A stretch of 64,000 nucleotides of DNA, taken from the NCBI RefSeq assembly GCF_001017435.1, contig NZ_CP011371.1, positions 2,666,001-2,730,000 on the forward strand. Reading direction: 5' to 3'. Below, piece after piece: positions 8,272-56,939 of the stretch. Positions within the stretch are counted from its first letter, which is position 1; the number at the start of each line of letters is the position of its first letter. The stretch is from Caldimonas brevitalea. Lineage in GTDB: Bacteria; Pseudomonadota; Gammaproteobacteria; Burkholderiales; Burkholderiaceae_C. The translations under genes were made by a program, and so were the position numbers. The notes beneath the pieces are model-generated. The model was not told the origin of the DNA, ran no database searches, and worked only from the letters and a program-made list of their open reading frames with translations.

Positions 8272-9306
8272 TCAGACGTCGGCCGAGAGCGAAAGCAGCG
8301 CGGGGCGACCCGCAAGCTCAGCGGGCCCGACGTGCGTCGCCCGGCGGCCTTGCCCGGTGGATGGATCGATGCGGGCAGGAGGTGTCGTGCAGGCGACCAA
8401 CCAGGGATCGTCGGGTCGTCCGCCGAAGCTCGTCACGAGGAAGTGCACGAAGGCCTGCGTGCTCCCCGGGTTGGGCCCGTGGTCTGGCATGGCGGCATAC
8501 AAGGTGTAGGGCGTGGTCCGCCACTCCGGCAACAGGCGAACCAAGGCGCCGCGTTGCAGCGCGTGGCGGACCATGAAGGTGGGCAGCGAGGCGATGCCCA
8601 TCCCGGCCAGTGCCGCGGCCAGCAGCGACTCGCCGTGTCGGGCCTGCAGCGCGATGCGAGGCTCGAGCTCGATCGCCTCGTTGTCGCGCTCGAAACGCCA
8701 CACCTGCGGCACGCCGGGCACGTCCGCCACGAGGCAGTCGCGTTCGAGCAGCTCGCGCGGGTGCGCCACCGGCCCGGTGCGCCGGAGGTAGCTGGGAGAT
8801 GCGCAAGGGATGAGGTGCGTCTGCACCAGCTGGCGCACCGCCAGGTCGTCCTGCAGCCGGCTGTCTTCCTTTGCGATCTCGATCGACACGTCATAGCGAC
8901 TGTCTACATCCAGGCCGTATCCCCGCGGCGTGACCTCGAGCGACACGCCGGGGTATCTCTCGGTGAAGGCCGGCAGGCGTCGGGCCACCTCATACACCAG
9001 AAAGGCCGAGGGGCCGACCAGACGCAGCTTGCCCCTCGGCTCCGCGGCCATCGCCGCCACCGCGGCGTCCGCCTCGTCGACCTCGCGCAGGATGCGCCGC
9101 GCCCGGTCGAGATAGATCTCTCCGGCGACCGTGAGCGCGAGGCGACGGGTCGTGCGTTGCAGCAGGCGCGCACCGAGTTCTGCCTCGAGGCCGGCCAACG
9201 TACGGCTCAAGGCCGCGCTCGTCAGTCCGAGCGCACTGGCCGCTCGGGAAAAACTGCCGGTGTCCACCACCTTGGTGAACACGGACAGCGCGTGCAGTTT
9301 GTCCAT
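8272..9306 (-). CDS. LysR-type regulator, paralogue of GlbA
   Basis: A 344-aa LysR-type regulator. The start is set at the Met of MDKLHALSVFTKVVDTGSFSR, the standard beginning of the family's winged helix-turn-helix; helix residues AASALGLTSAALSRTLAGLEAELGARLL follow. The remainder is the periplasmic-binding-like effector domain. It is clearly paralogous to the regulator at 29889-30902: the HTH, the RTTRxxALT segment, the RARRILREVD linker and the C-terminal FVxFLxTxFGG...DPWL all match. It lies 100 bp downstream of glbH on the same strand, so it may be the distal gene of the biosynthetic operon or its own unit. An effector or target cannot be read from sequence. Confidence 0.92.
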   Translation of the reverse strand: MDKLHALSVFTKVVDTGSFSRAASALGLTSAALSRTLAGLEAELGARLLQRTTRRLALTVAGEIYLDRARRILREVDEADAAVAAMAAEPRGKLRLVGPSAFLVYEVARRLPAFTERYPGVSLEVTPRGYGLDVDSRYDVSIEIAKEDSRLQDDLAVRQLVQTHLIPCASPSYLRRTGPVAHPRELLERDCLVADVPGVPQVWRFERDNEAIELEPRIALQARHGESLLAAALAGMGIASLPTFMVRHALQRGALVRLLPEWRTTPYTLYAAMPDHGPNPGSTQAFVHFLVTSFGGRPDDPWLVACTTPPARIDPSTGQGRRATHVGPAELAGRPALLSLSADV

Positions 9307-9406
9307 TCGACATCTGAAGCGTGTGATGTGGGCAGCAGCAGGGCTGCGAGGCTGGCTTGCACCTGTCACGGCCTCTTCCCGTCGCAGGTTGCGCGCCGCC
9401 GCGCGT

Positions 9407-10825
9407 CTATCGACCGGTCATCAACCGATCCACCAACTGCTTGACGGTGGGCGTGAAACCATTCGCATAGAAAGGATCCGAGGCAAAGCGATAGGCGTTG
9501 TGTCCGCCGAACATCAGGTTCCGGTCCAGCATCGCGTCATCGGCATGTTCGTCGCGCACCTCCTGCAGCGTTTTCTGGATGCAGAAGCTGCGAGGGTCGG
9601 CTTTCGCGCCGCTGCTGAAACTCGGCGTGTGCTGCGACCAGCTCGAGAACCGGCACTGGCTGAGGCAACCGATGCAGTTCTTCTGGTCGCGCCGGATCTC
9701 GTCGGCCTTCTCCGGTGTCACGAAGATCAGCGTTTGGTCCGGCGTGCGCAGGTCCTCGGTGAACCCCGAGCGCCGCCATACCTCGGCCCGCTCCAGTTCG
9801 GAGGGCGTCACGTAGTAGACCTGATGCGGGCCGACCTGCAAGGGCGCGGGTTGTGCCTGCGTCGGCTCGGTCGCATAGGGGATCTCGTGTTCGAGCCGCT
9901 GATACAGCTCTTGCAGAAAGCCGTTGTGGACCGCGCTGGAATAGAACCCGGTGGGGCTGAAGCGGTTCAACAGCACGTCTCCCTGCTTCAAGGTCCTGAG
10001 CCGCTGTTTCCAGGCCTGGCCGATCGGGCTTTCCTGGGTGAGCAGCGGACGGGTGCCGAGCTGAAAGGCGATCGGGCCGAGCTCGGGGTTGTCGATCCAG
10101 TGCTCCCACTCTTCCAGCCACCAGACGCCGCCAGCCATGATGATCGGCGTCGAGTCGAGGCCGAAGCCGCGCATGGACTTGCGCAGCTCCAGCACGCGGG
10201 GATAGGGGTCGGCCGGCTGGTCGGGGTCTTCGCTGTTGGACAGCCCGTTGTGGCCGCCTGCGAGCCAAGGGTCTTCATACACCACCGCCCCCAGCAGCTC
10301 GGCCGTCTTCGCATAGGCGCGCTTCCACAAGGCATTGAACGCGCGCGCGGAAGACACGATGGGGTAGTAGTGCACGCCGTACTTCGCGGCGATCTCGCTC
10401 AGTCGGTAGGGCATGCCGGCGCCGCAGGTCACGCCGTGGATCAGCCCCGCGGCGCCCTCCAGCATGCCGTCGAGGATGCGCTCGGCACCGCCCATCTCCC
10501 ACAGCACGTTGACATGCACACGACCGTTCGGGCCAGCGATGTCGTGAGCGCGCCGGGCCTGCGCGATGGCGCCGCGGATGGACTGGGCAATCAGTGTTTC
10601 GTGGCGCTCCTGTCGGGTGCGCCCCGGAGCATCCGCGCGCACCGGGCGGCCCCCTTCGTCGAAGCTGTCGGGCAGCGCGGCACTGAAGGTGCCGACGCCG
10701 CCCGCCCGTGCCCAGTGGCCCGCGGACACACCGTTGGAGACACCGACGCCCTTGCCGCCTTCAACGAGGGGCAGCAGCTCGACGCCGCCCATGCGGATCG
10801 CGTTGACAGCTTTCATGGTCGTCAT
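9407..10825 (-). CDS. glbH: Nitronate monooxygenase-like flavoprotein (GlbH)
   Basis: A 472-aa TIM-barrel flavoprotein of the nitronate monooxygenase/2-nitropropane dioxygenase (and FabK/PfaD-related) group: N-terminal GGKGVGVSNGVSAG, central GVTCGAGMP, HYYPIVSSARA, then PIIMAGGVWW and AFQLGTRPLLTQES for FMN phosphate binding. Towards the C-terminus is a Cys cluster, CIGCLSQC at about residues 383-390 and a further Cys at about 414, resembling the iron-sulfur ligands of dienoyl-CoA reductase-type flavoenzymes. Ordinary nitronate monooxygenases lack this. It is the last glb gene before the second LysR, 63 nt after glbG. A role in shaping the unsaturated acyl chain of glidobactin is conceivable but unproven. 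The first two Met codons compete as start. Confidence 0.85.
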   Translation of the reverse strand: MTTMKAVNAIRMGGVELLPLVEGGKGVGVSNGVSAGHWARAGGVGTFSAALPDSFDEGGRPVRADAPGRTRQERHETLIAQSIRGAIAQARRAHDIAGPNGRVHVNVLWEMGGAERILDGMLEGAAGLIHGVTCGAGMPYRLSEIAAKYGVHYYPIVSSARAFNALWKRAYAKTAELLGAVVYEDPWLAGGHNGLSNSEDPDQPADPYPRVLELRKSMRGFGLDSTPIIMAGGVWWLEEWEHWIDNPELGPIAFQLGTRPLLTQESPIGQAWKQRLRTLKQGDVLLNRFSPTGFYSSAVHNGFLQELYQRLEHEIPYATEPTQAQPAPLQVGPHQVYYVTPSELERAEVWRRSGFTEDLRTPDQTLIFVTPEKADEIRRDQKNCIGCLSQCRFSSWSQHTPSFSSGAKADPRSFCIQKTLQEVRDEHADDAMLDRNLMFGGHNAYRFASDPFYANGFTPTVKQLVDRLMTGR

Positions 10826-10888
10826 CCATTCGGGAGTGGTGAATACAGATCGTGATGGGGCAGGGCCCCGCCGCTTGGACCTTGCCGT

Positions 10889-11254
10889 TCACGTCGGCTT
10901 GCTCGCATGGGACTTGAAGTAGTCGCTGAGCAGCGTGATCTTTCCGCCGGTCGCCTCGACCAGCGTCGCGCCGGCGTTGCGGTACGGACCGGCGCCCTTC
11001 CAGACACCCTCGTTCTCCCAGAAGACGCAGGCCCGGGCACCGTCGGACAGCACGCCGGTCTGGGTGAACGTCAGGTATTCGAAGTTGCCGTAGAGCCGCT
11101 GCAGGAAGAACAGCACGGTCTTCTTGCCCTGCATCGGACGCAGCCCGGGGAAATCAAAGCTCACGCCCTCGTCGAAGATCTCGCCCAAGGCGTGAAGGTC
11201 CTGATCGTTCATCGCACGGAACAGGTGTTGGGTCAGCAGCAGCACAGATGTCAT
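10889..11254 (-). CDS. glbG: NTF2/SnoaL-like small protein (GlbG)
   Basis: A 121-aa protein of the NTF2-like superfamily (SnoaL/ketosteroid isomerase type): a helical start (LLTQHLFRAMNDQDLHALGEIFDEGVSFDFPG), then KKTVLFFLQRLYGNFEYLTF and a C-terminal antiparallel sheet ending in GGKITLLSDYFKSH. These folds act as isomerases, cyclases or simple binding domains; I see no pair of residues that decides which. The ribosome site AGAGGAAAG precedes the ATG. It lies between the NRPS glbF (37 nt upstream) and glbH (63 nt downstream), so it is part of the operon. The gene name follows position in the known cluster; its biochemical role is not known to me. Confidence 0.8.
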   Translation of the reverse strand: MTSVLLLTQHLFRAMNDQDLHALGEIFDEGVSFDFPGLRPMQGKKTVLFFLQRLYGNFEYLTFTQTGVLSDGARACVFWENEGVWKGAGPYRNAGATLVEATGGKITLLSDYFKSHASKPT

Positions 11255-11291
11255 CGTCAGCTTTCCTCTGTCTGGGGGTTGGGCGCCGGCC

Positions 11292-14543
<3,252 letters not shown>

Positions 14544-14547
14544 GTCC

Positions 14548-14769
14548 TCAGGCCTCCGGTTGGGCGTGTGCGCGGCGGGCCACGCTGCGTGGGCGCAGGT
14601 CGGTCCAGTGCGCCTCGATGTAGTCCAGGCAGGCCGGCCGCGTCTCGCTCCCGAACGCGATCTCCCAGCCGGCCGGGACTTGCAGCGATGCGGGCCACAG
14701 CGAGTGCTGGCCCTCTGCGTTGACCAGGACCAGAAACGCGCCGTCGACGTCGTCAAGTAGATGGGTCAT
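14548..14769 (-). CDS. glbE: MbtH-like NRPS chaperone (GlbE)
   Basis: A 73-aa MbtH-family protein with the family pattern [29 protein letters not shown] and, after a Cys-containing linker, [14 protein letters not shown]. The three conserved Trp (LWP, GWE, HWTDLRP) are present. MbtH proteins bind adenylation domains and are often needed for their solubility or activity; the partner here is presumably GlbF and/or the A domains of GlbC. The start ATG 14769 lies 17 nt inside the end of glbD, with its ribosome site AAGAGGAT within that coding end, so translation is probably coupled. glbF begins 4 nt after its stop. Confidence 0.95.
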
Positions 14770-16059
14770 CGATATCCTCTTGTTGCGGTGGAAGGTGTTG
14801 CGCGAGCGTTGCGGGATTGCGCAAGGCCCTGCAGCGCAGCACGGCGACGAAGGCCGCGCCGTAGAGCGCCGCGGCGAGCAGAAACGGCGCGCCCGGGAAG
14901 AACAAGGCCGGTGTGTTCGCCTGCGTGAAAAACTCGAACGAGCGGGCGCCGACCAGCGGCGCCAGCGACGCCGCCAACCCGCTCAGGCACACCAGCGCGC
15001 CCTGGTACTCGCCTTGCCGCCCGGCGCCGGCCCGTACCGACACGAGCGCACGCAAGGGTGGGTCGCTCAGCAGCGCCAGCGAGTGCAGACCGATCGCCAT
15101 CGCAAGCCATGCGAAGGAGCCGGCGCCGCTGTAGACCACGTACGCGGCGACAAACAGCGCATAGCCGATCAGCGCAGATCGGTACTCGCCCAGGCGACGC
15201 AGCACCTTGGGCAGCAGCAGGCTTTGTGTCATGACGATGCCCAGGCCCAGCGCCGCCAGGGCCAGCCCGTTCTCGGCTGGTCCCCAGCCGAGCCGCAGCT
15301 GGTTGGACACCACGAAGCAGGCCAGGAAGATGCCGTAGGCGGTCATGCCCAGGCAGATCGCACCGGCCAGGGTGCGGAACACCTTGTCGTCCCGCACCAG
15401 CGCCAGGCTGCCGAAGGGATGCGCGCGCCGCCATGCGAACGGCGTTCTGCGCTGGGGCGGCAGGCTTTCGGTCAGCAGGAAGACCGCGCCGAGGAAGTTG
15501 AGGACGGCCAGCACACCGGCCGCGACGAATGGCACGCGTGGACCCAGCGCCCCTAGCAGCCCGCCGAACGCCGGGCCGGCGATCAAGCCCAAGCCAAGCA
15601 CCGCGCCGGCCAACCCGAAGCGCCGCGACCGGTCGGCCGGCGGCGTCACGTCGGCCAGGTAGGCGGTGGCCGCCGCCGCCCCGGCCGCGGTGCAGCCGGC
15701 CAACAGGTGCGCGGCCAGCAGGCCGCCGAAGCTGTGGGCGCTGGCGCCGAGCGCAAAGGCGGCGGCGGTGCCGAACAGGGTCAGCAGCAGGACCGGCCGG
15801 CGGCCCCATGCATCGCTCAGCGTGCCCCACAGCGACCCGAACACGAACTGCATGAAGGCAAAGCCGGTCAGCAGTGTGCCGAGCGTCGTCGGCACGTCGG
15901 CGGCCGCGACACCGGCGGCCTTCAGCAGGTCGGGCAGCACCGGTGTCGCGACACCGAGCCCGATCGCGTCGAGCGCCAAGGTCGCCAGGACGATCCCCAG
16001 CTGTCGGCGCGTCTGCACGGCAGGTGGCTGCAAGCCGAGCGAGGGTGCGGTGTCCACGC

Positions 16060-16063
<4 letters not shown>
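14753..16063 (-). CDS. glbD: MFS transporter, likely glidobactin exporter (GlbD)
   Basis: A 436-aa major facilitator protein with about twelve hydrophobic segments. The motif A loop between helices 2 and 3 reads [18 protein letters not shown], and [19 protein letters not shown] is the typical helix 4-5 region of drug/H+ antiporters of the TetA-like type. The start is ATG 16063, forming an ATGA overlap with the stop of glbC; the open frame extends upstream only as an antisense shadow of glbC. Its place inside the operon suggests that it exports the proteasome-inhibiting product, possibly giving self-protection. That role is inferred from context. Confidence 0.92.
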
Positions 16064-28605
<12,542 letters not shown>

Positions 28606-28639
28606 GGTGGTCGATTCCGGTTCTCGATCGATGAATGGG

Positions 28640-29464
28640 TCAGGTGGGTTGCGCGCTGGACGCAGGGTTCAAGGGCGAGAAGTCGATCAAGATCACGGTG
28701 CGCGTGCCGTGTGAGGCGCCGGGGCTGCAGCTGACAGCCGTGACCTGGTGGCAGATGGCCGCGTCATCGATGATGTAGCTCTGCAGCGGCGAGCCCAGCA
28801 CGAAGGCCGACAGCAGATGGCTGGGCACTTCGTCGAACTGGCGTCCCGTGTACCGCGGCGGCGCAATGAAGTTGACGCCGCCTTCGGCATGGCTGCGTTC
28901 GACCAAGTGCACCGCGGTGAACGGCTGCCCGTCCTGGTGCAGGCAGTCCGGCGTGATCCTGGCGACGGCGCCCGGCGTGGCCTGCATGCGGATCATGTGG
29001 AAACCGCACAGCAAATCGCCCTCGGCGTCGAACATCGGCGTGAGGCTCAGGTCGTACCAGATGAGCCGGTGGACGAGCGGCAACGCCAGGATGTCCTCGC
29101 GGGTGCGCGCGAAGTTGCGCACCACCCCTCCATGCTCCGGCTGGAACTCGCTGTGCTGCACATAGGCGATCTCGACACGGCCGTCCGGCGTGCGAGCGCC
29201 GGCCTTCCATGCAATCGTCTTGCGGCGCGGCGTGAGAATGCCTTCCGCATAGCTGCGATGGCGGCCCCCGGTGCCGAAGCGGTCGACCGGCAGGCTTCGG
29301 GCGTATTCCGTCAAGCGCTGCAAGTCAGCCGCTTCGTCGACCGCGACTTGCATGTCGGTCGCGTCGAACCTGGCCCATCCGCGTTGCTGCAAGGCTGCGC
29401 GCACGTCGCCGGGTTCCGTTTCCGGTGCTGCGGCAGCCCATTCCTGTCCTGTCATTTTTGACAT
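28640..29464 (-). CDS. glbB: Fe(II)/2-oxoglutarate dioxygenase, lysine 4-hydroxylase type (GlbB)
   Basis: A 274-aa dioxygenase of the PF10014 (2OG-Fe dioxygenase) group that includes amino-acid hydroxylases. The iron-binding HxD is in CLHQDGQPFTAVHLV, and a distal His is available in ICHQVTAV; a basic residue for 2-oxoglutarate lies in SHGTRTVILIDF. In the glidobactin pathway the equivalent enzyme is known to make 4-hydroxy-L-lysine as free amino acid for loading on the first A domain of GlbC. I choose ATG 29464; the frame runs 57 codons further up without homology. It precedes glbC by 34 nt and is the first gene of the biosynthetic transcription unit, after a 424-base gap. Confidence 0.93.
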   Translation of the reverse strand: MSKMTGQEWAAAAPETEPGDVRAALQQRGWARFDATDMQVAVDEAADLQRLTEYARSLPVDRFGTGGRHRSYAEGILTPRRKTIAWKAGARTPDGRVEIAYVQHSEFQPEHGGVVRNFARTREDILALPLVHRLIWYDLSLTPMFDAEGDLLCGFHMIRMQATPGAVARITPDCLHQDGQPFTAVHLVERSHAEGGVNFIAPPRYTGRQFDEVPSHLLSAFVLGSPLQSYIIDDAAICHQVTAVSCSPGASHGTRTVILIDFSPLNPASSAQPT

Positions 29465-29888
29465 GCTTTCCCGTTTTAAAAAAGGCACGCCCAACTGCAT
29501 GGCACCGGTTGCCCGGCGGCAGATAAGAAGTTCAAAGGGCACCGGCACGTGACCGGCAGGACGGAGCGGCGCGCCGCTGCATAGCGCAGCGCCGGCTCCT
29601 GTGCGTCGACGTTGTGGGTTGAGGCTCGCGGTCAAGACCGCGGGCGCTTGCCTGCTGCTTGTGTTGTCGACTTGTTGGACATCTTTACGGACTCGTTAAG
29701 CTGTAGCAATCGCGGCGGCCACAATGCGTTCGTTACCGGGATGCAAGAATGTGAGAGCCAAGTATTGACAACGAGCAACGGACGATCAGACGCGGGCGCG
29801 CGCAAGCCGGTGTCGGTGTGACGCCGGTCTGGGGTGCGCCGCGCGAGGTCGCGGCGAGGCGAGGCGGGAAGGGGAGGTGTCGGCGGGG
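29465..29888. promoter_or_regulatory. Probable glb operon promoter region
   Basis: This 424-base gap lies between the regulator glbA and the first biosynthetic gene glbB, both on the minus strand, so the operon promoter and GlbA binding site should be here. A candidate LysR box of the T-N11-A type, TTGCTACAGCTTA read on the minus strand with an inner GCT-AC-AGC dyad, covers about 29696-29709. No strong sigma-70 pair is visible; a weak TTGCTA / TAAAGA combination with 16-bp spacing overlaps the box. The AT content is locally raised (29690-29780), as in promoters. The precise elements are inference. Confidence 0.4.
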
Positions 29889-30902
29889 TCAGCGGCGCCG
29901 GGCGGCGCTGTGGCGGACGCGCTTGCCGAATGCAGTGCCCGCGCCGTCGTGCGAGACGGCCGGCGTCGAGCCACGGGTGGTGGCGGCTGCAAGCCATGGA
30001 TCATGGTCGGGGCCGCCGAAGGTGGTCGTCAAGAACTGAACGAAGGCGCGCGTACTGGCGGGGATGTACCGATAGGTCGGCAGAACGGCATAGATCGTCT
30101 GCGGCGCGATGCGCCACTGCGGCAGCACGCGAACCAGGCTGTTGCGCTGCAATGCGTCGTGAACCATGAAGGTGGGCAGTGTGGCGATGCCGAGTTCTGC
30201 CAGCGCTGCCGCATACAGAGACTCGCCGTGATCGGACCTCAGTGCGGCCCGCGGTTCTATCTCGACCACATCGGCGGCGCCTTCGAAACGCCACACGGGC
30301 GGCATGCCCGACGTCGCGAACACGAGGCAGTCGCGCTGCAGGAGATCGGTGGGGTGCTCGACCGGGCCGCAACGTTCGAGGTAGCCCGGGGCGGCGCAGG
30401 GAAGGCAGTGCACCTGTGCGAGGGGGCGCGCCACCACGTCGTCGCGCAGGATGCTGCCGCCGACGCCGGCGACCTGGATCGACACGTCGTAGGCGCTGTC
30501 CGCCTCCAGGTCACAGTCGCCGGCGACGACGTCGATCGACACGTCGGGGTAGCGGGCGACGAAGACGGGCAGCTGCCGGGCCAGTTGGTGCACCACGAAG
30601 GATGACGGCGCCAGCACGCGCAGCTTGCCTTTGGGCTCCGCCACCAGGGCGGCCACGGTGGCATCGGCTGCGTCGACCTCGCGCAGGATGCGACGCGCCC
30701 GTTCGAGATAGACCCCGCCGGCGGGGGTGAGGGCAACGCTGCGGGTGGTGCGTTGCAGGAGTCGCACGCCGAGCTGGGCCTCCAGGCCGGCCACCGTGCG
30801 GCTGACGGCGGCGCTTGACAGCCCGAGCGATTCGGCGGCCTTCGTCAAGGCGCCCAGGTCGACAACCTTCGTGAAGACGTGCATAGCATGCAGCTTGTCC
30901 AT
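29889..30902 (-). CDS. glbA: LysR-type transcriptional regulator (GlbA)
   Basis: A 337-aa LysR-type regulator starting with MDKLHAMHVFTKVVDLGALTK; the recognition helix region is AAESLGLSSAAVSRTVAGLEAQLGVRLL and the linker RARRILREVDAADATVAAL. The rest is the effector-binding domain. It sits upstream of glbB in the same orientation and is the expected pathway regulator of the glb operon. It is a close paralogue of the regulator at 8272-9306 beyond the other end of the cluster. The ATG lacks a good Shine-Dalgarno on this strand. The symbol glbA is assigned from cluster position and recalled nomenclature. Confidence 0.88.
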   Translation of the reverse strand: MDKLHAMHVFTKVVDLGALTKAAESLGLSSAAVSRTVAGLEAQLGVRLLQRTTRSVALTPAGGVYLERARRILREVDAADATVAALVAEPKGKLRVLAPSSFVVHQLARQLPVFVARYPDVSIDVVAGDCDLEADSAYDVSIQVAGVGGSILRDDVVARPLAQVHCLPCAAPGYLERCGPVEHPTDLLQRDCLVFATSGMPPVWRFEGAADVVEIEPRAALRSDHGESLYAAALAELGIATLPTFMVHDALQRNSLVRVLPQWRIAPQTIYAVLPTYRYIPASTRAFVQFLTTTFGGPDHDPWLAAATTRGSTPAVSHDGAGTAFGKRVRHSAARRR

Positions 30903-31254: not shown

Positions 31255-33375
<2,121 letters not shown>

Positions 33376-33482
33376 GTCGGGTACTGCAGGGTGGTGCCGC
33401 CACTCTAACTGGCTTCGACGCCCGCCGTGGCCTGTCCTACAGCGAGGGCGGGCCGGCGCGAAGCCGGCCTGCAGGCCCCCAC

Positions 33483-34709
33483 TCAGTTGGGATGCCGCAC
33501 CAGCAGCTGCCCCTGCCGCCAGGACGCGCGCAAGGGGTTGAAGCCGAACTGGCAGACGAGGTCGCGCGGATGGTCGATGGCCCACCAGGCCAGGTCTGCG
33601 TCGAGCCCGACGCGCAAACGGCCGGTGCGCTGTTGCAGGCCGAGCGCTTGCGCGGCATGCCGCGTCACGCCGGCAAGCGCTTCGGCGGGGGTCAGGCCGA
33701 ACAGCGTGCAGGCCATGTGCAGCATCAGCAGCAAGGAGGTGCAGGGGCTGGTGCCGGGGTTGCAGTCGGTCGAGACAGCCATCGGCACCCGGCGGGCCCG
33801 CAGTGCGTCGACCGGCGGCCGGCGCTGCTCGCGCAGGCAGTAGTACGCGCCGGGCAGCAGCACGGCGACCGTGCCGGCCCGTGCCATCGCCTCGATCGAG
33901 GCGGGCGAGCTGTATTCGATGTGGTCGGCCGACAGTGCGTGGTATTCGGCCGCCAGTGCCGCCCCGCCCAGGTCCGACAACTGGTCGGCGTGCAGCTTGA
34001 CCGGCAGGCCCAGTGCCTGCGCCGCCTCGAACACGCGGCGGGTTTGCGCCGGGCTGAAGCCGATGCCTTCGCAATAGGCGTCCACCGCGTCGGCCAGGCC
34101 TTCGGCGTGCACGGCGGGCAGCATGCGGTGGCAGACCTCGTCGACGTAGGCGTCGGCCTGCCCCCGGTATTCGGGCGGCAGCGCATGGGCGCCGAGGAAG
34201 GTGGTGCGCACCTGCACACCGTGGCGGCGCCCCAGTTCGCGGGCCACCCGCAGCAAACGCAGTTCGGCGGCGACCTCCAGGCCGTAGCCCGATTTGATCT
34301 CGACCGTCGTGACACCTTCGCCGCGCAAGGCCAGCAGGCGAGGCGCCGCGGCCTCGAGCAGCTGCGCTTCGGACGCGGCCCGGGTGGCGGCCACGGTCGA
34401 GACGATGCCGCCGCCGGCGCGGGCGATCTCTTCGTAGCTCGCGCCCTGCCAGCGTCGCTCGATCTCGGCGGCCCGGCTGCCGGCCCAGACCAGATGGGTG
34501 TGGCAGTCGATCAACCCCGGGGTCAGCCAGCCGCCGCCCAGGTCGAGCACCTGCTGGGCCTGCAGCTGTGCAGGCCGCTCGCGGGCCGGACCGAGCCATG
34601 CGATGCGGCCGTCGGCAATGGCGATGGCCGCGTCGTGCAGTTCGCCGTATCCCTCGTCGGTGTCCAGCGTCGCGACGTGCACGCCGTGCAGCAGCAGGTC
34701 GGCCTTCAT
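33483..34709 (-). CDS. hutI: Imidazolonepropionase
   Basis: A 408-aa amidohydrolase that hydrolyses 4-imidazolone-5-propionate to N-formimidoyl-L-glutamate, the third step of histidine degradation. Motifs: metal-binding [12 protein letters not shown], the EIKSGYGL segment, [25 protein letters not shown] and DCNPGTSP near the C-terminal part of the barrel. Length matches the family. ATG 34709 overlaps the hutG stop as ATGA, so its translation is coupled to hutG. It is the last gene of the hut operon; 107 nt separate it from the kinase gene that follows on the same strand. Confidence 0.97.
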
Positions 34710-35662
34710 GCGGTCGCCGCGGTGGTGGCGGCCTGCCAGGCCGAGACGATCTGCCAGGCCAGGCGGGCCGCCGTGCGTGCGGTGCGTCCGTCCGGGTCCA
34801 GCGGCGGGCACAACTCGGCGATGTCGGCCAGCCGCAGTCGGCCGCAGCCGGCCACGCTGCACACCAACGGCTCCAGCAGCTCCATCGCCAGCCCGCGGGC
34901 GGCTGGCGCACTGACACCAGGCGCGACGGCCGCGGGCAGCACGTCGAGGCACAGGCTGAGGTAGACGTGGTCGTAGCCGTCGAGCCAGTCGCGCAACTCA
35001 TTCAGGTGGGCGTCGAGCGTGAGCAGGTTGAGCTGGTGGTCTTCGGCCCAATCGACTCCCCGGGTGTGCGCGGTGTCGTACAGCGCGCGCGTGTTGGCAG
35101 TGGCGCTGATGCCGTAGCAACGGTAGGCGACGGTGCGGCCGCGCTGCGCGGCCTCGTCGAGCGCCTGGCGAAACGGCGTACCCGAGGTGGCCTCGGGCGC
35201 CACGCGCAAATCGAAATGGGCGTCGAAGTTGACGATCGCCAACTTGCCTTCGGCGGCCGCGCTGCCGGGCGCCGTCAGGCCGCTGTAGCTGGCCCAGGCG
35301 ATCTCGTGGCCGCCGCCCAGGCCCAGCACCAGCTGCCCGTCGGCCAGCAAGGCGGCGGCGCGCTGCGCATAGGCCTGCTGCGCGGCTTCGAGGCGGCCGT
35401 CGTCGCAGCCGATGTCGCCCGCGTCCTGCAGCGCGAGTGGGGGGTGCCAGGGCAGGTTGGCCATCGCCCGGCGCAGCGCCTGCGGGCCTTGTGCCGCGCC
35501 CACGCGGCCCTGGTTGCGGCGCACGCCTTCGTCGCTGGCCAGGCCCAGCATCACCACGCCGCCGGGTCGGCCGGGGCGCCACGGCACCACCACCTGGTGC
35601 CAGCGCCGGCCGGCTTCGCCGTCGAGCGCGTCGACGCGGCCTTGCCAGGGGCCATCGCTCAT
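34706..35662 (-). CDS. hutG: Formimidoylglutamase (arginase/ureohydrolase family)
   Basis: A 318-aa ureohydrolase that cleaves N-formimidoyl-L-glutamate to glutamate and formamide, completing histidine breakdown by the one-step route. Manganese-binding motifs: [14 protein letters not shown], and [18 protein letters not shown], where the usual SxDxD of arginases is SLCLD, a variant I associate with HutG-type enzymes. Start: ATG 35662, overlapping the hutH stop as ATGA; four extra codons upstream would give an earlier Met but inside hutH. The presence of hutG of this type rather than a hutF/formylglutamate amidohydrolase pair shows which of the two known pathways is used. Confidence 0.95.
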
Positions 35663-37202
35663 GACCGGCTCCACGATGGCAGCACCTGCCCCGCGTAGGG
35701 CGTGAAGCTGCCGGCGTCGATCAACTGCTCGACGGCCGCGATGTCGGGTGCGAAGTAGCGGTCCTGCGTGTAGTGGGGCACGCGACGCCGGATCGCCGCA
35801 TGCGCTTCTTCCAAGGGTTGCGAGCTGCGCAAGGGACGGTGGAAGTCGATGCCTTGTGCGGCCGCCAGCAGCTCGATCGCGATGATGTGCCGCACGTTGA
35901 GGGCCATGTCGGCCAGCTTGCGCGCGGCGAAGGTGGCCATGCTGACATGGTCCTCCTGGTTGGCCGAGGTGGGCAGTGAGTCGACGCTGGCCGGGTGCGC
36001 CAGCGTCTTGTTTTCGCTCGCCAGGGCCGCGGCCGTGACATGCGCGATCATGAAGCCCGAGTTGAGGCCCGGCTCCTGCACCAGGAAGGGTGGCAGCCCC
36101 GACAGCGACGCGTCGATCAGCAAGGCGATGCGGCGTTCGCTCAACGCGCCCACCTCGGCGATCGCCAAGGCCAGCGTGTCGGCGGCGAACGCCACCGGCT
36201 CGGCGTGGAAGTTGCCGCCGGAGAGCACTTCACCGCTGTCGGCAAACACCAGCGGGTTGTCCGAGACCGCATTGGCTTCGATCACCAGCGTCGCGGCGGC
36301 ATTGCGGATCAGCTCCAGGCAAGCCCCCATCACCTGCGGCTGGCAGCGCAGCGAATACGGGTCTTGCACACGGTCGTCGCCGGTGCGGTGCGAGGCGCGG
36401 ATGGCGCTGCCGGCCAGCAGGTCACGGTAGAGGGCGGCCACCTCGATCTGTCCGCGGTGGCCGCGCACCTGCTGGATGCGGTCGTCGAACGGCGCATCCG
36501 ACCCTTTGGCCGCGTCGACACTGAGCGCGCCGGCCACCACCGCGGCGGCGAACACCTGCTCGGCCCGCAGCAAGCCCATCAGCGCGATGCCGGTCGACAC
36601 CTGGGTGCCGTTGAGCAGCGCCAGCCCTTCCTTGGGGGCGAAGCGCACCGGCTGCAGCCCGGCGCGCTGCAAGGCCTGGGCGGCCGGCACGATACGCCCG
36701 TCGACGCGCACCTCACCTTCGCCCATCAGCGGCAGCGTCAAATGGGCCAGCGGTGCCAGGTCGCCTGAAGCCCCGACCGAACCTTGCGACGGGATGCAGG
36801 GCCAGATCTGCGCGTTGAACATCGCCACCAAGGCGTCGATCACCTCGGGCCGCACGCCGGAATAGCCCCGCGCCAGCGACGCGATCTTGAGCGCCAGCAC
36901 CAGACGCACGGTGTCGTCGTCGAGCAGCGGGCCGACGCCGACCGCATGCGAGCGCACCAGGTTGGCTTGCAGCTGGGCCAGCTGGTCGTGGGGGATCTGC
37001 ACCTTGGCCAGTTTGCCGAAGCCGGTGTTGATGCCGTAGGCCGGCTCCGCGCCGGCGCTGATGCGCTGCACGGTGGCGGCGCTGGCGGCGATGCCGGCGC
37101 GGCATTCGAGGTCGAGTTCGATGGGCTGGAAGGCTGCGGCGATGCCGCGCAGGTCGAGCAGCCCGAGGCGGCCGGGGTGCAGGGTGAGTCGTTCGCTCGG
37201 GC

Positions 37203-37206
<4 letters not shown>
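35659..37206 (-). CDS. hutH: Histidine ammonia-lyase
   Basis: A 515-aa lyase that converts histidine to urocanate and ammonia. The self-processing Ala-Ser-Gly that forms the MIO electrophile lies in [14 protein letters not shown], near residue 145; the N-terminal [10 protein letters not shown] with the catalytic Tyr is at about 55; NGTQVSTG and the C-terminal QEDHVSM are also present. Length is normal. The start ATG 37206 overlaps the hutU stop as ATGA and its own stop overlaps hutG in the same way, indicating tight translational coupling within the operon. Confidence 0.97.
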
Positions 37207-38887
<1,681 letters not shown>

Positions 38888-38891
<4 letters not shown>

Positions 38892-38965
38892 GCCGGCACC
38901 TTGCGGGTCGCAAGCACGCAACGGCCTTCGCGGCGAGCAGGAAGGGGTGGGGACGACGGTCTCAT
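38888..38965 (-). CDS. Possible 25-codon leader ORF coupled to hutU
   Basis: Between hutC and hutU, ATG 38965 follows GAGGAG at good spacing and opens a 25-codon frame (starting [16 protein letters not shown]) whose TGA overlaps the hutU ATG as ATGA. The peptide has no recognisable family and contains no His run, so classical histidine attenuation is not suggested. It may serve only to deliver ribosomes to hutU, whose own ribosome site (AAGGTG) is weaker. The same ATGA arrangement links hutU-hutH, hutH-hutG and hutG-hutI. Confidence 0.4.
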
Positions 38966-38993
38966 GTTGTGTCTCCTCGTGAGAGCGGTGCGG

Positions 38994-39719
38994 TCAGCCG
39001 TGGTGGGGCTGGGCAAACGAGAAACGCCCGCTCAGGCGGTAGCGGCGGGCGGGGTGGATCAGCCGGGCGACGCTCACGACCCGGCCGTGCGACCAGGTGC
39101 GGCGGTTGAGGATCAACACCGGCTCGTGGGCACCGAGTTGCAGCTGGCGCGCCCAGTCGGGCGTCGCCGCGTCGGCTTCGATGACGTGCTCGGCCTGCTC
39201 CAGCGGCGCAACGCGGGACAGGTAGTGGTGCGGCGTGTCGCTCGCGAAGTCTTGTTCGAGGTAGCCCGGCGCGGCCGCCGGCGCGACGTGCCGATCCTCC
39301 AGTTGCAGCGGCTGGCCGTCGGCGTAGTGCAGCAGCAGTGAATGGAACAACGGTGCGCCGAGCGCGACGCCGAAAGCTTGGGCCAGCCGGGCGTCGGCCG
39401 GCACCGACGCGAGGCTCAGCACATCGGCCCGGTGTTGCTGACCGCGCTGCTGGATCTCGTCGCGGATGCCGTGCACTTCGACCAGCGTCGACTCGGCCTT
39501 CGGGCCGGCCACGAACGACCCGACACCCTGCACCCGTGTGATGGCCCCGCTCGCGGCGAGCTCACGCAGCGCCCGGTTGACCGTCATGCGCGACAGACCG
39601 AACTCGCGCGTCAGCTCGCCTTCGCTGGGAATGCGGTCGCCGGTGCGCCAGCGGCCGGCGGCGATCTGCGCCAGCACGTGGCGTTTGAGCTGGAGGTAGG
39701 CGGGGGCGGCGGCGGACAT
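38994..39719 (-). CDS. hutC: Histidine utilisation repressor HutC (GntR/HutC family)
   Basis: A 241-aa GntR-type repressor. The N-terminal winged helix reads YLQLKRHVLAQIAAGRWRTGDRIPSE, with recognition helix LSRMTVNRALREL and wing ITRVQGVGSFVAG; the C-terminal half is a UTRA effector domain (LFHSLLLHYADGQPLQLEDRHV, and HYLSRVAPLEQAEHVIEA), which in HutC binds urocanate. It is the promoter-proximal gene of the hut operon, with a matching operator about 40-54 bp upstream of its start, so it probably represses itself together with hutUHGI and is induced by urocanate. Confidence 0.95.
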   Translation of the reverse strand: MSAAAPAYLQLKRHVLAQIAAGRWRTGDRIPSEGELTREFGLSRMTVNRALRELAASGAITRVQGVGSFVAGPKAESTLVEVHGIRDEIQQRGQQHRADVLSLASVPADARLAQAFGVALGAPLFHSLLLHYADGQPLQLEDRHVAPAAAPGYLEQDFASDTPHHYLSRVAPLEQAEHVIEADAATPDWARQLQLGAHEPVLILNRRTWSHGRVVSVARLIHPARRYRLSGRFSFAQPHHG

Positions 39720-44008: not shown

Positions 44009-45304
44009 TCAGCCGAGCGCCTTTTCGGCGTCCATGATCTTGTAGCGGGCCAGCGCGAGGTTGACACGCTGCTTGTCGAGCACCGCGAGCACGAACAGTT
44101 CCGGGTGGGCCGTGACCGTGCGCAGCACCAGGTGGCGCCGCCCGTGCGTGACGAAAATCTCGTCGACGCGCTCGCCGCAGCCCATGTCGCGCGCCGCGCG
44201 GCGATGTGCCTTCATCACCTCGGTCTGGCTGGCGGCCGCCAGTTCCAGATGCAGGGACTCGACGTCGGGCGCCACTTCGCTGCCCAGCAACAGCCCGGTG
44301 GTCATGTCTGCGATGCAGCAGCCGAGCACACCTTCCACCTGCATCAGCTGCGACAGCGTGCGGGCGACACGCGTGGCATCGGGCGCGTTGTGCAGTGTGT
44401 CGACCTGCACTGCAACAGGGGCAACAGCCGCCGCGGCGTCGACTGCCTTCACGGTGCCGATGATGGGCATGCCCAGCTCGGCCACCTTGATCGGGAACTC
44501 GGACACGCCCAGCGCGGGCGCCGGTTTGCTTTGGTCCCACTGGGAGCGGGTCTTGACCCGGTTCCAGGTGCTCAACACGCTGTTCCAGACACCCGAGGCG
44601 CTGGTCATCGGCTCGTTCGTGACCTGCACGTTGAGCCGGTTCGGCCAGCGCATTTCGGCGATACGGGCTGCCAGGTGACCGGTTTGGGCGCACAGCATGA
44701 ACAGCAGGTTGGGGCAGCGCCAGTGCACGTCCTTGGTGGCTGCGTGCAGCATGCCCAGCATGTCGTCCAGCTCGTGGGCCGACGCGGGGGTGACCACCAC
44801 CGCGGTCAGGTGGCTGCTCTCCATCAACGCGATCGGCACCGCCAGCGCCTCGGCGCTGAGCTGCCGCACGTCGGTGTGGTAGATCTTCAGCGGTTCGTCG
44901 ACGCGGCGCGGCAGCGAGGTGCGTTCGATCTGGGCGATCGTCGCGAGGGTGGTCTGGTGGCGCAGGTGCAAACGCTCGATCGGCTGGCCCGAGGCGTCCG
45001 ACAAGGCCTTGATCACGCTGCCGGCCCACAAGCGGGCCGGGTCGAACAACGTGATCTGCCGGCTGGCGACGCCGAGGTCGGAACGCGTGGCGACCAGGTG
45101 CTGGCGTATGGCCTCGGCCGGCGAGCCGACGACGAACAGGTCGCGTGTGTGTTTGTCGACCATCTGGCCGCGGTCGTTGACCTCGGTCGCGACACTTTCG
45201 AGGATGGCGGTGGCGGCAAAGTCGCTGCCTTCCGGGGAGGGGCGGCGGACGCGGCGGGGCGGATGGGCCGGGGCCCCGAGGTCGCCGAAAAGGGAAGTCA
45301 GCAT
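44009..45304 (-). CDS. Roadblock/LC7-domain protein with large unknown N-terminal region
   Basis: A 431-aa protein. The last 110 residues (TRVARTLSQLMQVEGVLGCCIADMTTGLLLGSE through THGRRHLVLRTVTAHPELFVLAVLDKQRVNLALARYKI) have the look of a roadblock/LC7 domain, a fold used by bacterial small-GTPase regulators (MglB-like) and longin-type scaffolds. The first 300 residues form a separate region with a Rossmann-like pattern (LTAVVVTPASAHELDDML) that I cannot assign. ATG 45304, with GAGGA upstream, is preferred over an earlier Met ten codons before. The gene is monocistronic here; no Ras-like GTPase is nearby. Function is unknown; a role in regulation or cell organisation is conceivable. Confidence 0.7.
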   Translation of the reverse strand: MLTSLFGDLGAPAHPPRRVRRPSPEGSDFAATAILESVATEVNDRGQMVDKHTRDLFVVGSPAEAIRQHLVATRSDLGVASRQITLFDPARLWAGSVIKALSDASGQPIERLHLRHQTTLATIAQIERTSLPRRVDEPLKIYHTDVRQLSAEALAVPIALMESSHLTAVVVTPASAHELDDMLGMLHAATKDVHWRCPNLLFMLCAQTGHLAARIAEMRWPNRLNVQVTNEPMTSASGVWNSVLSTWNRVKTRSQWDQSKPAPALGVSEFPIKVAELGMPIIGTVKAVDAAAAVAPVAVQVDTLHNAPDATRVARTLSQLMQVEGVLGCCIADMTTGLLLGSEVAPDVESLHLELAAASQTEVMKAHRRAARDMGCGERVDEIFVTHGRRHLVLRTVTAHPELFVLAVLDKQRVNLALARYKIMDAEKALG

Positions 45305-45536
45305 GTCGTCCTCGATCGAGCGGTTGTACTGCAATGTCGGTCAGCCGAGCAAACGGAATGCCTGCCCCCTGTCGAACGCCCCACACGCCTGTTCAGCCCG
45401 TGGGGCAGCTACCCATTCTGCGGTGCAGGCCAGTTTGGGCGGCCGACAGGTCTTGGAGCCCGGTAATCTTGTCAGTGTAGGCAGGAGGTCTTGCCGCACC
45501 ATCCCCTAAAAGCGGGGCGAAGCAGCGCAAGCGGTG
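45305..45536. other. Intergenic gap
   Basis: This 232-base stretch upstream of the roadblock-domain gene and downstream of the AraC gene contains GGGGCAG/CTGCCCC-like partial dyads but no clean terminator, promoter pair or gene that I can support. Confidence 0.3.
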
Positions 45537-50379: not shown

Positions 50380-51912
50380 TCAAGTCAGCGCCATCGCGCG
50401 TGGCGCACCACCGACGACGCCGAAGGCGTGTTGCAGCGACGAACTGCTCAGGGCCGCCTCGGTCGCATCGGCCAGCCGCTGCAGGCTGGCGTCGCGCAAG
50501 GCGCCCAGGTCGATCGGGCGCCGGTCTTCCAGTCCGGCCCAGGCGAGCAACGCATCCAGTGCCGCGGGATGGTCGAACAGCCCGTGCACATAGGTCGCCA
50601 ACAACTGGCCGTCCGGGTCGCACACACCGTCGTGCCGCCCGTCGTCTAACTCGACCATCGGGTGGGCCAGCGCCGGGCCGCGGCTGACACCGGCGTGGAT
50701 TTCATAGCCGGCCACTGCGGCGCCGCCGGCGCGCAGCCGGCCGGCCACACGCGCCAGCTGCTTGTCGCGGGCCATCGTGGTCTCGAAGTCCAGCAACCCC
50801 AGGCCCGGCAACGACCCCGGCGGGCCTTCCAGGCCGTGCGGGTCGTGCAACCACTGCCCGAGCATCTGCATGCCGCCGCAGATGCCGATCATCTTGCCGC
50901 CGTAGCGCAGGTGGCGGCGCAACGCGCTCTCCCAGCCGCGCCGGCGCAACTCCTGCAGGTCGGACTGCACGCTCTTGCTGCCGGCCAGCACGATCAGGTC
51001 GGCGGCGGGCAGCGGGGCGGCGGGGCCGGCGAACACCAGCTCGACCTGCGGATGGTGGCGCAGCGCATCGAAATCGGTGTGGTTGGAGATGCGCGGCAAC
51101 ACCGGCACCACCACCTTCAGCCGGCGCTCCGCCGTGGGGGTCGAGGCCTCGCGCGGCAACGCGTCTTCGGCATCGAGCATCAAGCCCTGCAGATAGGGCA
51201 GCACCCCCAGCACGGGCTTGCCGGTGCGCTGCGTGAGCCACTGCAAGCCGGGTTCGAGCAGCCGCAGGTCGCCGCGGAAGCGGTTGATCACGAAGCCGCG
51301 CACGCGGGCCCGCTCCGACTCGCTCAGGCATTCCAACGTGCCGAGCAGGTGCGCGAACACGCCGCCGCGGTCGATGTCGGCCACCAGCAGCACCGGGCAG
51401 TCCGCGGCCTCGGCGAAGCCCATGTTGGCGATGTCGCGCTCGCGCAGATTCACCTCGGCCGGGCTGCCGGCGCCTTCGACCAGTACCACCTCGTGCGCGG
51501 CGCGCAGCCGCTCGTAACTCTCGAGCACGTAGGGCAGCGCCATCGGCTTGTAGTCGTGGTAGTGGCGGGCATCGGCATTGAAACGGGCGCGGCCCTGGAT
51601 GATCACCTGGGCGCCGGTGTCGCTGTTGGGCTTGAGCAGCACCGGGTTCATGTCGGTGTGCGGCGCCAGGCCGCAGGCCTCGGCCTGCAGTGCCTGGGCG
51701 CGGCCGATCTCGCCGCCGTCGGCCGTCACGGCCGAGTTGAGCGCCATGTTCTGCGGCTTGAAGGGCGCCACGCGGCGGCCGTGGCGGTGGAAGATGCGGC
51801 CCAGTGCCGCCACCAGGGTCGACTTGCCGGCGTCGCTGGTGCAGCCCTGCACCATCAGCGTGCCGCAATAGGTGTCGAAGAAGTTGTCGGAAGTCGGGAG
51901 GGAAGGGGGCAT
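50380..51912 (-). CDS. cobQ: Cobyric acid synthase
   Basis: A 510-aa glutamine-dependent amidotransferase that amidates adenosylcobyrinate a,c-diamide at positions b, d, e and g. N-terminal P-loop-like DethioB synthase domain: [20 protein letters not shown] near residue 20, [27 protein letters not shown]-terminal class I glutaminase domain with nucleophilic Cys in [11 protein letters not shown] near 345 and His in [10 protein letters not shown]. The first 19 residues are an extension beyond the usual start, so a Met at residue 20 is a possible alternative. It is divergent from cbiB, 106 nt apart, and belongs to the cobalamin locus that follows. Confidence 0.96.
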
Positions 51913-51944
51913 GGGCCGATTATGATTTCCGCCTCCATCATGTT

Positions 51945-51974
51945 GGCGCCTCTTCGCACAGGCGCCTCTTTTTT
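51945..51974 (+). terminator. Possible hairpin plus T-run upstream of cbiB
   Basis: Two copies of GGCGCC (51945-51950 and 51961-51966) can pair with a 10-base loop; the second is followed by TCTTTTTT, giving a rho-independent terminator-like structure about 45 bp before the cbiB start. Terminators in a leader of this type can act as attenuators; no riboswitch sequence is visible upstream of it, so its role is open. Confidence 0.35.
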
Positions 51975-52018
51975 GCCTGTCACGGCGCCTTGTTCGTCGC
52001 CGATCGTCGCTGCCCTCG

Positions 52019-52957
52019 ATGCTCTTCGACCTCTACCTCTCTTTGGCCGATCGGGAATGGGCCTGGGCGCTGCTGCTGGGCGTGGCGGCCGACGTGCTGC
52101 TCGGCGAGCCGCGTCGCTGGCACCCGCTGGTCGGCTTCGGCCGCGTGGCCGCAGGTGTGGAGGCACGGCTGAACCGGGCCCGCCGGTGGCAGGGCGTGCT
52201 GGCGGTCGGGCTGATGCTGGCGCTGCCGCTGGCGTTGCTGAGCTTGCTGCGGAGCCGGCTGCCGGGCGGCCAGTGGCTGGTCGACGGCGTGTTGCTGTAT
52301 TTCGCGCTCGGCGCGCGCAGCCTGCACGAGCATGTGAGGCCGGTGGGGCAGGCGCTGCAGGCCGGCGACCTGGCGGCCGCCCGCGCGGCGGTGCAGCGGG
52401 TGGTGTCGCGTGATTGCGGCTCGCTGGATGCGGCGGGCGTTGCCGGCGCGGCGGTCGAATCGACGCTGGAAAACGGCAACGATGCGGTGTTCGGCACGCT
52501 GTTCTGGTTTGCCGTCGGCGGCGGCGCCGGGGCCTTGCTGTACCGCCTCGCCAACACGCTCGACGCCATGTGGGGCTATCGCACCGAGCGGCTGCGCGCC
52601 TTCGGCTGGGCGGCGGCGCGGCTCGACGATGGGCTGAACTGGCTGCCGGCCCGGCTGACCGCCCTGAGTTATGCCGGCCTGGGCTACACCAAGCTGGCGT
52701 TGTGGTGCTGGCGCCACCAGGCGCCGCGCTGGGACAGCCCGAACGCCGGCCCGGTGATGGCCGCCGGTGCGGGGGCCCTCGGCCTCAAACTCGGCGGCCC
52801 TGCGTCCTACCACGGTCGTGTCGAGCAGCGGCCGGTGCTCGGCGCGGGCCGGCTGCCGGCGGCGGGCGACATCGGACGGGCGCTCGCGCTGGTGGCCAGT
52901 GTGTTGCTGTTGTGGCTGGTGGTGTTGACTGTGCTGCATGCGGGGCTGACACGATGA
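52019..52957 (+). CDS. cbiB: Adenosylcobinamide-phosphate synthase
   Basis: A 312-aa membrane enzyme (CbiB/CobD) that attaches the aminopropanol (phosphate) side chain to adenosylcobyric acid. Characteristic pieces are [59 protein letters not shown], and [35 protein letters not shown]. Several hydrophobic helices fit the inner membrane. The stop overlaps the start of the next gene as ATGA. Together with the decarboxylase downstream it supplies the lower-ligand arm of cobalamin. Confidence 0.95.
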
Positions 52958-54036
52958 CTTCTGCTTCGCGGCTGGGCTCCCATATGGAACCTCCCAATCC
53001 TGCTGCAGCCTGGCCTTGGCCTGCCGTGCCGCACGGCGCGGACCTGGCGCGGGCCCGCCAGCTCTACCCGGCGCCGGCGGCCGGCTGGCTCGACCTGTCC
53101 ACGGGGCTCAACCCGCGGCCGTGGCCGGTGGCTGGCGAACTGGATCGAGTCGCCGCGTCGGTCTGGCGCGACCTGCCCGACATCGAGGCCGACGTGGCGC
53201 AGCGCTTCGAGCGTTACTACGGCGCCCCCGCCTTGCCGGTACCCGGCTCGCAAGCGGCGATCCAGGCCTTGCCGCGCATCTGGCGGCGCCTGTACGGCAC
53301 GGCCCGATGCCACGTCTTGGCCCCTGGCTACGGTGAACATGCGGCGCGCTGGTCGCTCGAAGGTCACACCGTGGTGGCCTGCGACTCGCAAGCGCTGGGG
53401 CAGGGCGAGCCCGACGTGATCGTGCTGGCACGGCCCAACAATCCCACCGGCGAGTGGTTCGAGGCGGACACGCTGCAGGCGCTGGCCCGGTGTTGCCGCT
53501 TGCTGGTGGTGGACGAGACCTTTCTCGATGCGGACGTCCACGCCAGCGTGGCCGCGCTGCGTGAACCCCGGGTGGTGGTCTTGCGCTCGCTCGGCAAGTT
53601 TTTCGGCCTGGCGGGTCTGCGCGTCGGCGCGGTGCTGGCCTGCGCGCCGTGGCTCGACGCCTTGCGCGCCGAACTCGGGCCCTGGAGCGTCAATGGCCCC
53701 GGCCTGCACCTGGCTGCCGCGGCGCTCGCCGACGAAGACTGGCAGCGCGATACCCGCGACTGGCTGGCGCAGCAGGCGCAGCGGCTCACGGCCTTGCTCG
53801 CCGCGCGCGGCCTGGTGTCGCACGGGACCTCGCTGTTCCGGACCGTGGCCACCCCCGCTGCCCGCGGGCTCCACGAGGGCCTCGCGCGGCGCGGCATCTG
53901 GACGCGCTTGTTCTGGCTCGACACGCCGCAGCCCTTTCGGGCGGTGCGCTTCGGGCTGCCGGCCAACGACGCCGGCTTGCAGCGGCTGGCGCAGGCGCTC
54001 GCCGACGTGTTGGACAAAGATTGCGAATCGCGATGA
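52954..54036 (+). CDS. cobC: L-threonine-O-3-phosphate decarboxylase
   Basis: A 360-aa PLP enzyme of the class I/II aminotransferase fold that produces (R)-1-aminopropan-2-ol phosphate for CbiB. Features: [13 protein letters not shown] start with [31 protein letters not shown], the PLP-lysine in [16 protein letters not shown] and the C-terminal VRFGLP arginine. The open frame extends 180 codons upstream, but only as a shadow of cbiB; ATG 52954 makes the ATGA overlap typical of this operon. It is named cobC after Pseudomonas denitrificans usage (cobD in Salmonella). Confidence 0.94.
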
Positions 54037-54962: not shown

Positions 54963-54986
54963 GGACGATCGGCGACTGCCCGCGGC

Positions 54987-56303: not shown

Positions 56304-56307
56304 GGCC

Positions 56308-56937
56308 TTACAGCTCCACGCCCGGCTGGGCCCGGATGCCTTGGGCAAAGGCGTGCTTGACGACGCCCATCTCGGTCACCGTGTGGGCGATCTCGATCAG
56401 CTCGGGCGGCGCGGCCCGGCCGGTGATGACGACATGCTGCATCTCGGGCCGCGACAGCAGGTCGTCGATCACCTGTTGCACGTCGATCAGACGGTACTTG
56501 AGCGCGATGTTCAATTCGTCGAGCAGCACCAGGCCGAGCGACGGGTCGCTGAGCATCTCGCGTGCGACCGCCCAGGCCGCCTGTGCCCTTTGCATGTCGC
56601 GTTCGCGGTCCTGGGTGTCCCAGGTGTAACCCTCGCCCATCACATGCAGCCGTACCTCGTCCGGGAAGCGCCGGAAGAAGCTTTCCTCGCCGGTCGGCAC
56701 CGCCCCTTTGATGAATTGCACCACCCCGACCTTCATGCCGTGGCCCAGTGCGCGGGCCACCATGCCGAAGCCGCTCGAACTCTTGCCCTTGCCATTGCCG
56801 GTGGTCACGACGATCACGCCGCAATCGCGCTGGGCGGCTGCGATCTTGGCGTCGATCAGTTCCTTTTTGCGCTGCATGCGGCGCCGGTGGCGCTCGTCGA
56901 GGTCGGGAGTGTCGGTGGTCACGGTTTTGTCTTTCAT
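56308..56937 (-). CDS. cobO: Corrinoid adenosyltransferase (CobO/BtuR type)
   Basis: A 209-aa ATP:cob(I)alamin adenosyltransferase. The P-loop is VVTTGNGKGKSSSGFGMVARALGHG; the substrate region has VVQFIKGAVPTGE and GEGYTWDTQDRERD, and a Walker B-like LVLLDELNIALKY. These are standard for the CobA/CobO/BtuR family. Start ATG 56937 follows the btuD stop by 2 nt. Its position between the ABC importer and cobB fits conversion of imported or early corrinoids to the adenosyl form needed for the later steps. Confidence 0.96.
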   Translation of the reverse strand: MKDKTVTTDTPDLDERHRRRMQRKKELIDAKIAAAQRDCGVIVVTTGNGKGKSSSGFGMVARALGHGMKVGVVQFIKGAVPTGEESFFRRFPDEVRLHVMGEGYTWDTQDRERDMQRAQAAWAVAREMLSDPSLGLVLLDELNIALKYRLIDVQQVIDDLLSRPEMQHVVITGRAAPPELIEIAHTVTEMGVVKHAFAQGIRAQPGVEL

Positions 56938-56939
56938 GT

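Follow-up and report, generated by a model that had tools for sequence, protein, structure and literature searches.

Which product is assembled by the NRPS-PKS locus at positions 8272-30902 of a 64,000-nucleotide stretch of the Caldimonas brevitalea genome, and what part does each of its genes play in making it? The stretch, referred to here as the window, covers 2,666,001-2,730,000 of a host genome of one 6,476,147-bp contig. The locus is identified as the published glidobactin cluster glbA-H of Schlegelella (Caldimonas) brevitalea DSM 7029, formerly Polyangium brachysporum K481-B101, and a probability of about 98% is given to this identity and the main pathway jointly. Schellenberg et al. 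(2007) reportedly described the glbA-H glidobactin cluster of strain K481-B101; the identity is based on coordinates and GlbB residue numbering in place of a letter-by-letter comparison with that 2007 entry. A glbC-F deletion published for DSM 7029 spans 2,677,295-2,694,602 (PMC8302735), which translates to 11,295-28,602 in the window, where the ORFs place the end of glbF at 11,292 and the start of glbC at 28,605. The genes follow the published functional order of glbA-H, namely regulator, lysine 4-hydroxylase, NRPS-PKS, transporter, MbtH, NRPS and two products of unknown function (PMC8248439), and all are located on the minus strand. Since deletion coordinates, gene order and GlbB residue numbering all agree, the locus is the same as the published glb cluster, and no evidence contradicting the identity was found. 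The assignment is not a matter of chance, because Pfam E-values across the locus reach 8.6e-159 and related loci exist in other genomes. The original prediction of a complete glidobactin-type cluster was therefore borne out, with all of its claimed elements found and both the deletion coordinates and the GlbB numbering matching the published cluster. The interval it gave for the GlbA-to-GlbH genes, 8272-30902, holds all eight but also takes in a LysR gene (8272-9369) that lies outside the published set. The cluster is already known, since it is the one from the original producer that serves as the glidobactin reference, and the GlbH lead alone brings new content. DSM 7029, a soil bacterium, is the strain in which the eight genes were first reported (PMC9027565); it is also called the original glidobactin producer, and an ion of m/z 521.333 is shown from a derivative with a promoter placed before glbF (PMC7804268).

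The first gene, glbA (29889-30902), encodes a 337-aa LysR-type protein with Pfam HTH_1 and LysR_substrate domains that agrees in position and role with the published glbA (PMC8248439) and probably regulates the cluster. A 121-aa ORF at 29632-29997 has no Pfam match and is probably not a gene. The lysine 4-hydroxylase gene glbB (28640-29500) encodes a PF10014 Fe/2OG dioxygenase of 286 aa (E 4.9e-35); its start, a Met at 29500, was taken from the published residue numbering, and the full open frame is 28640-29635. It is followed by glbC (16060-28605), which by Pfam domains and motifs encodes an NRPS-PKS megasynthase of 4181 aa, and by glbD (14753-16063, in a frame of 14753-16918), encoding a 436-aa MFS protein (MFS_1, E 7.7e-39) that probably exports the product. 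The short ORF of glbE (14548-14769) overlaps the end of glbD and translates to a 73-aa MbtH-like protein (PF03621, E 1.8e-23 at genome positions 2680614-2680769). The dioxygenase, MbtH protein and exporter that had been predicted thus correspond to the PF10014, PF03621 and MFS_1 genes. A second MbtH gene of the genome is found at 3215840-3215983, inside the NRPS cluster BGC7 at 3,144,084-3,218,374 (PMC8302735). Next, glbF (11292-14543, in a frame of 11292-14756) encodes a starter C-A(Thr)-PCP module of 1083 aa identified by Pfam and its A-domain code, glbG (10889-11254) a 121-aa SnoaL/NTF2-like protein homologous to Plu1877 (SnoaL_2, E 2.6e-15), and glbH (9407-10825) a putative FabX-like flavoprotein of the NMO family with 472 aa.

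Other parts of the window contain genes of different kinds. Histidine utilisation genes on the minus strand at 34706-39719 encode an arginase-family hydrolase, an aromatic amino acid lyase, a urocanase and a GntR/UTRA regulator, and are adjoined by a hybrid PAS/GAF histidine kinase gene at 31255-35001. Cobalamin synthesis and uptake is represented at 50380-60794 by CobQ/CbiA-type and CobD/CbiB proteins, a FecCD permease, an ABC ATPase, a periplasmic binding protein and a TonB receptor. A plus-strand gene at 61153-63966 encodes a 937-aa galactose-oxidase-like protein with Kelch, GO-like E-set and F5/8 type C domains, and a 441-aa ORF on the minus strand at 44009-45334 has the base composition of coding DNA and matches nothing in Pfam.

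By Pfam, GlbC consists of two C, two A and three carrier domains together with KS, AT, DH, KR and TE domains, in the same order, C-A-PCP-C-A-PCP-KS-AT-DH-KR-ACP-TE, that had been predicted for the megasynthase. Motif anchors in the A domains give the codes DFWNIGMVHK for GlbF, DLGDVGSIDK for the first A domain of GlbC (A1) and DVGWIAGIVK for the second (A2), the final K in each being the usual invariant lysine, filled in and not read. The GlbF code, identical to the one predicted for a stand-alone Thr module, is taken here as a Thr code, and the A1 code presumably suits a basic residue. Further motifs in GlbC are TACSS in the KS domain, GHSLG and HAFH in the AT domain, GHSLG in the TE domain and those of the KR domain; HAFH is assumed to mark malonate. 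The DH motif, HRIFxGxxVLPG, is one residue over the consensus, yet a defect was rejected as an explanation because the motif is common to the relatives, being kept in 11 of the 11 compared. The A-domain motif residues and the KS and AT motifs of GlbC differ little among the four relatives compared. For GlbB, the active-site residues are given as His188, Asp190, His251 and Arg267 (PMC9951290); when the window ORF is read from its Met at 29500, H188, D190, H251 and R267 fall at the published positions, and all four are invariant in 10 of 10 aligned GlbB sequences.

In the pathway, GlbB hydroxylates free L-lysine at C4, and the condensation domain of GlbF, whose starter type comes from the literature, acylates Thr with a fatty acid. 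GlbC then adds 4-hydroxy-Lys, Ala and one malonate unit in turn, with GlbE assisting adenylation. Ketoreduction and dehydration of the malonate extension yield 4-amino-2-pentenoate, and the TE domain closes the 12-membered lactam. The glidobactin product, the activity of GlbB and the acylation by GlbF have been reported, and for a Photorhabdus cluster in E. coli it has been described what happens when the GlbB, GlbD and GlbG homologues are lost (PMC8248439). The original prediction held that the chemistry could be had from sequence alone, and this stands for the domain order and the Thr code. It does not extend to Ala, because reading the A2 code as Ala requires knowing the product beforehand, nor to the choice between Lys and 4-hydroxy-Lys, because a Photorhabdus assembly line lacking the hydroxylase is reported to yield the deoxy product (PMC8248439). 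The A2 code is also the point in favour of another reading, in which the locus only looks like the glidobactin cluster and is an NRPS-PKS system whose A domains take other substrates. That reading is exceedingly improbable given that the deletion coordinates match the published glbC-F, the GlbB numbering equals the published one, GlbF carries the Thr code and the A-domain motif residues are so nearly conserved in the relatives. As the glidobactin cluster, the locus serves as a positive control, in which a complete, experimentally characterised route to a proteasome inhibitor, with the greater part of the chemistry involved, was read from the bare sequence. A genome-wide search for a proteasome-like self-resistance duplicate gave a single PF00227 match, a 194-aa frame outside the window that is presumably HslV, and so lends no support to such a gene.

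Related loci are few. Ten proteins among 2671 candidates match GlbB at E <= 1e-3, nine of them besides GlbB itself at 52-60% identity, and among 200 sampled genomes of the family a GlbB at E <= 1e-20 was found in the host genome only. A scan of the contigs of named genomes with the single GlbB sequence gave no match, and a scan with the 10-sequence alignment, which may omit records of the window's own genome, gave 12 loci: nine in Photorhabdus, two in Burkholderia and one in 'Candidatus Burkholderia humilis'. In eleven of these (L004-L014) the DH region of a GlbC relative is present as well. In the 'Candidatus Burkholderia humilis' locus (L015) the GlbB match covers just 33 residues, and no piece of GlbC reaches E <= 1e-10. 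The genomes behind these loci were then searched for other Glb proteins, with L006 left out, giving 11 genomes (eight Photorhabdus and three Burkholderia). GlbG homologues are present in eight of them, comprising all eight Photorhabdus, and adjoin a GlbF homologue in each of the four loci read (L020-L023). A close GlbH is absent from all 11; three give a weak match (best E 1e-19, 31% identity), to which one genome adds a short stretch at 43%.

As described in PMC8248439, the Photorhabdus plu1881-1877 clusters resemble the window in having homologues of GlbB, GlbC, GlbD, GlbF and GlbG and differ from it in being without glbA, glbE and glbH. Their identity to the window proteins is 53-56% for GlbB (nine loci), 49-60% for GlbC pieces (five loci), and 61-62% for a GlbF piece and 50-52% for GlbG (four loci). 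In Burkholderia sp. TSV86 and B. singularis (L012 and L014), whose loci were compared without the far end where GlbD and GlbF would lie, GlbB is 53% identical, the C-A-PCP and KS-AT pieces of GlbC are 59-66% identical and the DH-KR piece is 50% identical. Unlike the window's host, these two genomes have no GlbG match and just a 31% NMO relative; they also contain no FabA over the cut-off.

The products of glbG and glbH are listed as unknown (PMC8248439). Judged by sequence profile, modelled fold and active-site residues, GlbH appears to be FabX-like. Its best PDB match is Helicobacter pylori FabX (profile, Foldseek, VIA), and the modelled fold is an NMO-type TIM barrel for which FabX is the nearest solved structure. 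UfaA of Neisseria is a related enzyme. The model and alignment were built from 119 of the 120 listed proteins, P0029 being excluded for an internal repeat; the other 118 are 68-75% identical to GlbH, more distant relatives having been left out. This model replaced one from 18 sequences that was discarded with a pLDDT of 54.4. Most family members start at the Met corresponding to 10816. In the numbering of P0018 (469 aa), FabX residues H182, N99, E175, Q240 and T243 correspond to H189, N103, E181, Q252 and T255, and all 119 aligned members keep nine key residues of the family unchanged. GlbH thus shares with H. pylori FabX the catalytic His and the FMN-contact residues, and it has four invariant C-terminal cysteines that may correspond to those of the FabX [4Fe-4S] cluster, yet the two proteins are just 25-26% identical in structural alignment and GlbH is about 110 residues longer. 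The cysteines (C381, C384, C388 and C412, invariant in 119/119) are arranged as C-x2-C-x3-C-x23-C in GlbH as opposed to C-x3-C-x3-C-x11-C in FabX, and model residues 384-404 have a pLDDT below 50. The ACP contacts R164 and T130 of FabX align to K170 and Y137.

The distribution of this family points to a relationship with FabA. In a sample of 299 Pseudomonadota genomes that included the window's own, the GlbH family (E <= 1e-60) is found in 91, FabA in 128, neither in 80 and both in none. The Fisher p of this exclusion is 5e-29, uncorrected for relatedness, and 65 of the 91 GlbH genomes belong to one family (f76); 30 of the 91 do not reach the quality threshold (90% completeness, 5% contamination). 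GlbH occurs in 12 families and FabA in 34, the sole overlap being the window's own family. The GlbH-bearing genomes are presumably Alphaproteobacteria, because they are outside the window's class and Acetobacteraceae, Rhodopila and Acidiphilium are among the protein matches. Gene neighbourhoods were read at hand-picked loci, 18 for GlbH from 11 families and 14 for FabA. A Fur-family gene, termed irr-like here and having a FUR Pfam match in two cases, adjoins fabA in 10 of the 14 and the GlbH homologue in four of the 18 (four families). These correlations suggest that the GlbH family replaces FabA. A complementarity of FabA and GlbH among glidobactin producers had also been predicted; FabA is over the cut-off in 8/8 Photorhabdus and 0/3 Burkholderia genomes searched (11 of the 12 GlbB loci, L006 left out), and the idea fails for Burkholderia, with no FabA and no close GlbH.

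The acyl chain of glidobactin A is 2(E),4(E)-dodecadienoyl (PMC7804268), and there is about an even chance that GlbH, together with GlbG, helps to make this unsaturated starter. As an FMN acyl-ACP/CoA dehydrogenase, GlbH may oxidise a saturated medium-chain acyl thioester to its 2-enoyl form, and one round of elongation and dehydration, with GlbG assisting, would convert this to the 2,4-diene. Loss of the GlbG homologue from the Photorhabdus cluster in E. coli is reported to leave little product, its tails being reduced in part or completely (PMC8248439). In favour of the role of GlbH stand its resemblance to FabX, the mutual exclusion of its family and FabA, the Fur-family neighbour shared with fabA at some of the loci and the lack of FabA over the cut-off in the host genome. 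Against it stand the absence of GlbH from all eight Photorhabdus genomes searched, a genus that makes glidobactin nonetheless (PMC8248439), the two Burkholderia genomes with glb-like loci but without a close GlbH, a GlbG match or FabA over the cut-off, the unlike cysteine spacing in a stretch modelled partly at low confidence, the Tyr aligned to T130 of FabX, and the 14 of 18 GlbH-family loci without an irr-like neighbour. The proposed role was not found in the literature on glbH and glidobactin or on FabX, a search that subscription papers mostly fell outside.

Two other explanations of glbH need to be weighed. If GlbH were a housekeeping unsaturated-fatty-acid enzyme of a FabA-less strain, it would be beside glbG by chance. 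The host genome indeed has no FabA above the cut-off, but it contains three FA_desaturase-family matches above the cut-off, the FabA-less family members G125, G031, G098 and G102 are also without GlbH, and glbH follows glbG on the same strand, making this explanation quite improbable. The other concerns the mutant, since disruption of glbH is reported to greatly reduce glidobactin (PMC9951290). A LysR gene stands at either end of the cluster, the two being paralogues. The one outside glbA-H, identified by Pfam at 8272-9369, has the same orientation as glbH, begins 37 bp beyond it and shares 61% identity with GlbA across 309 aa (blastp E 7.9e-126). Because a GlbA-like regulator sits directly downstream, the loss of yield could be a polar effect, with GlbH having no direct role in the pathway, and the production of glidobactin by Photorhabdus without GlbH (PMC8248439) fits this. 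Nevertheless, GlbH at E <= 1e-60 is found in 0 of 199 other genomes of the family and 0 of 299 other genomes of the order sampled, and for this reason looks acquired by the host lineage, where it has been kept beside glbG. It also resembles a fatty-acid unsaturation enzyme, which fits an unsaturated starter, and a polar effect is accordingly considered unlikely.

If GlbH is instead a FabX-type enzyme, glbH would gain a function and the glbH-mutant phenotype a mechanism. More broadly, the large GlbH family, of about 470 residues and annotated as 'nitronate monooxygenase', may comprise FabX-like FMN, probably [4Fe-4S], acyl-thioester dehydrogenases that take over the task of FabA in many Pseudomonadota lacking it. 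These bacteria are presumably Alphaproteobacteria, and in some the gene would occupy the very place of fabA next to an irr-like gene; one member would have been recruited for the unsaturated starter of glidobactin. The chances of this wider proposal are put at slightly less than even. If GlbH is of the FabX type, a family carried under the name of nitronate monooxygenase would be a candidate route to unsaturated fatty acids in bacteria that lack FabA.
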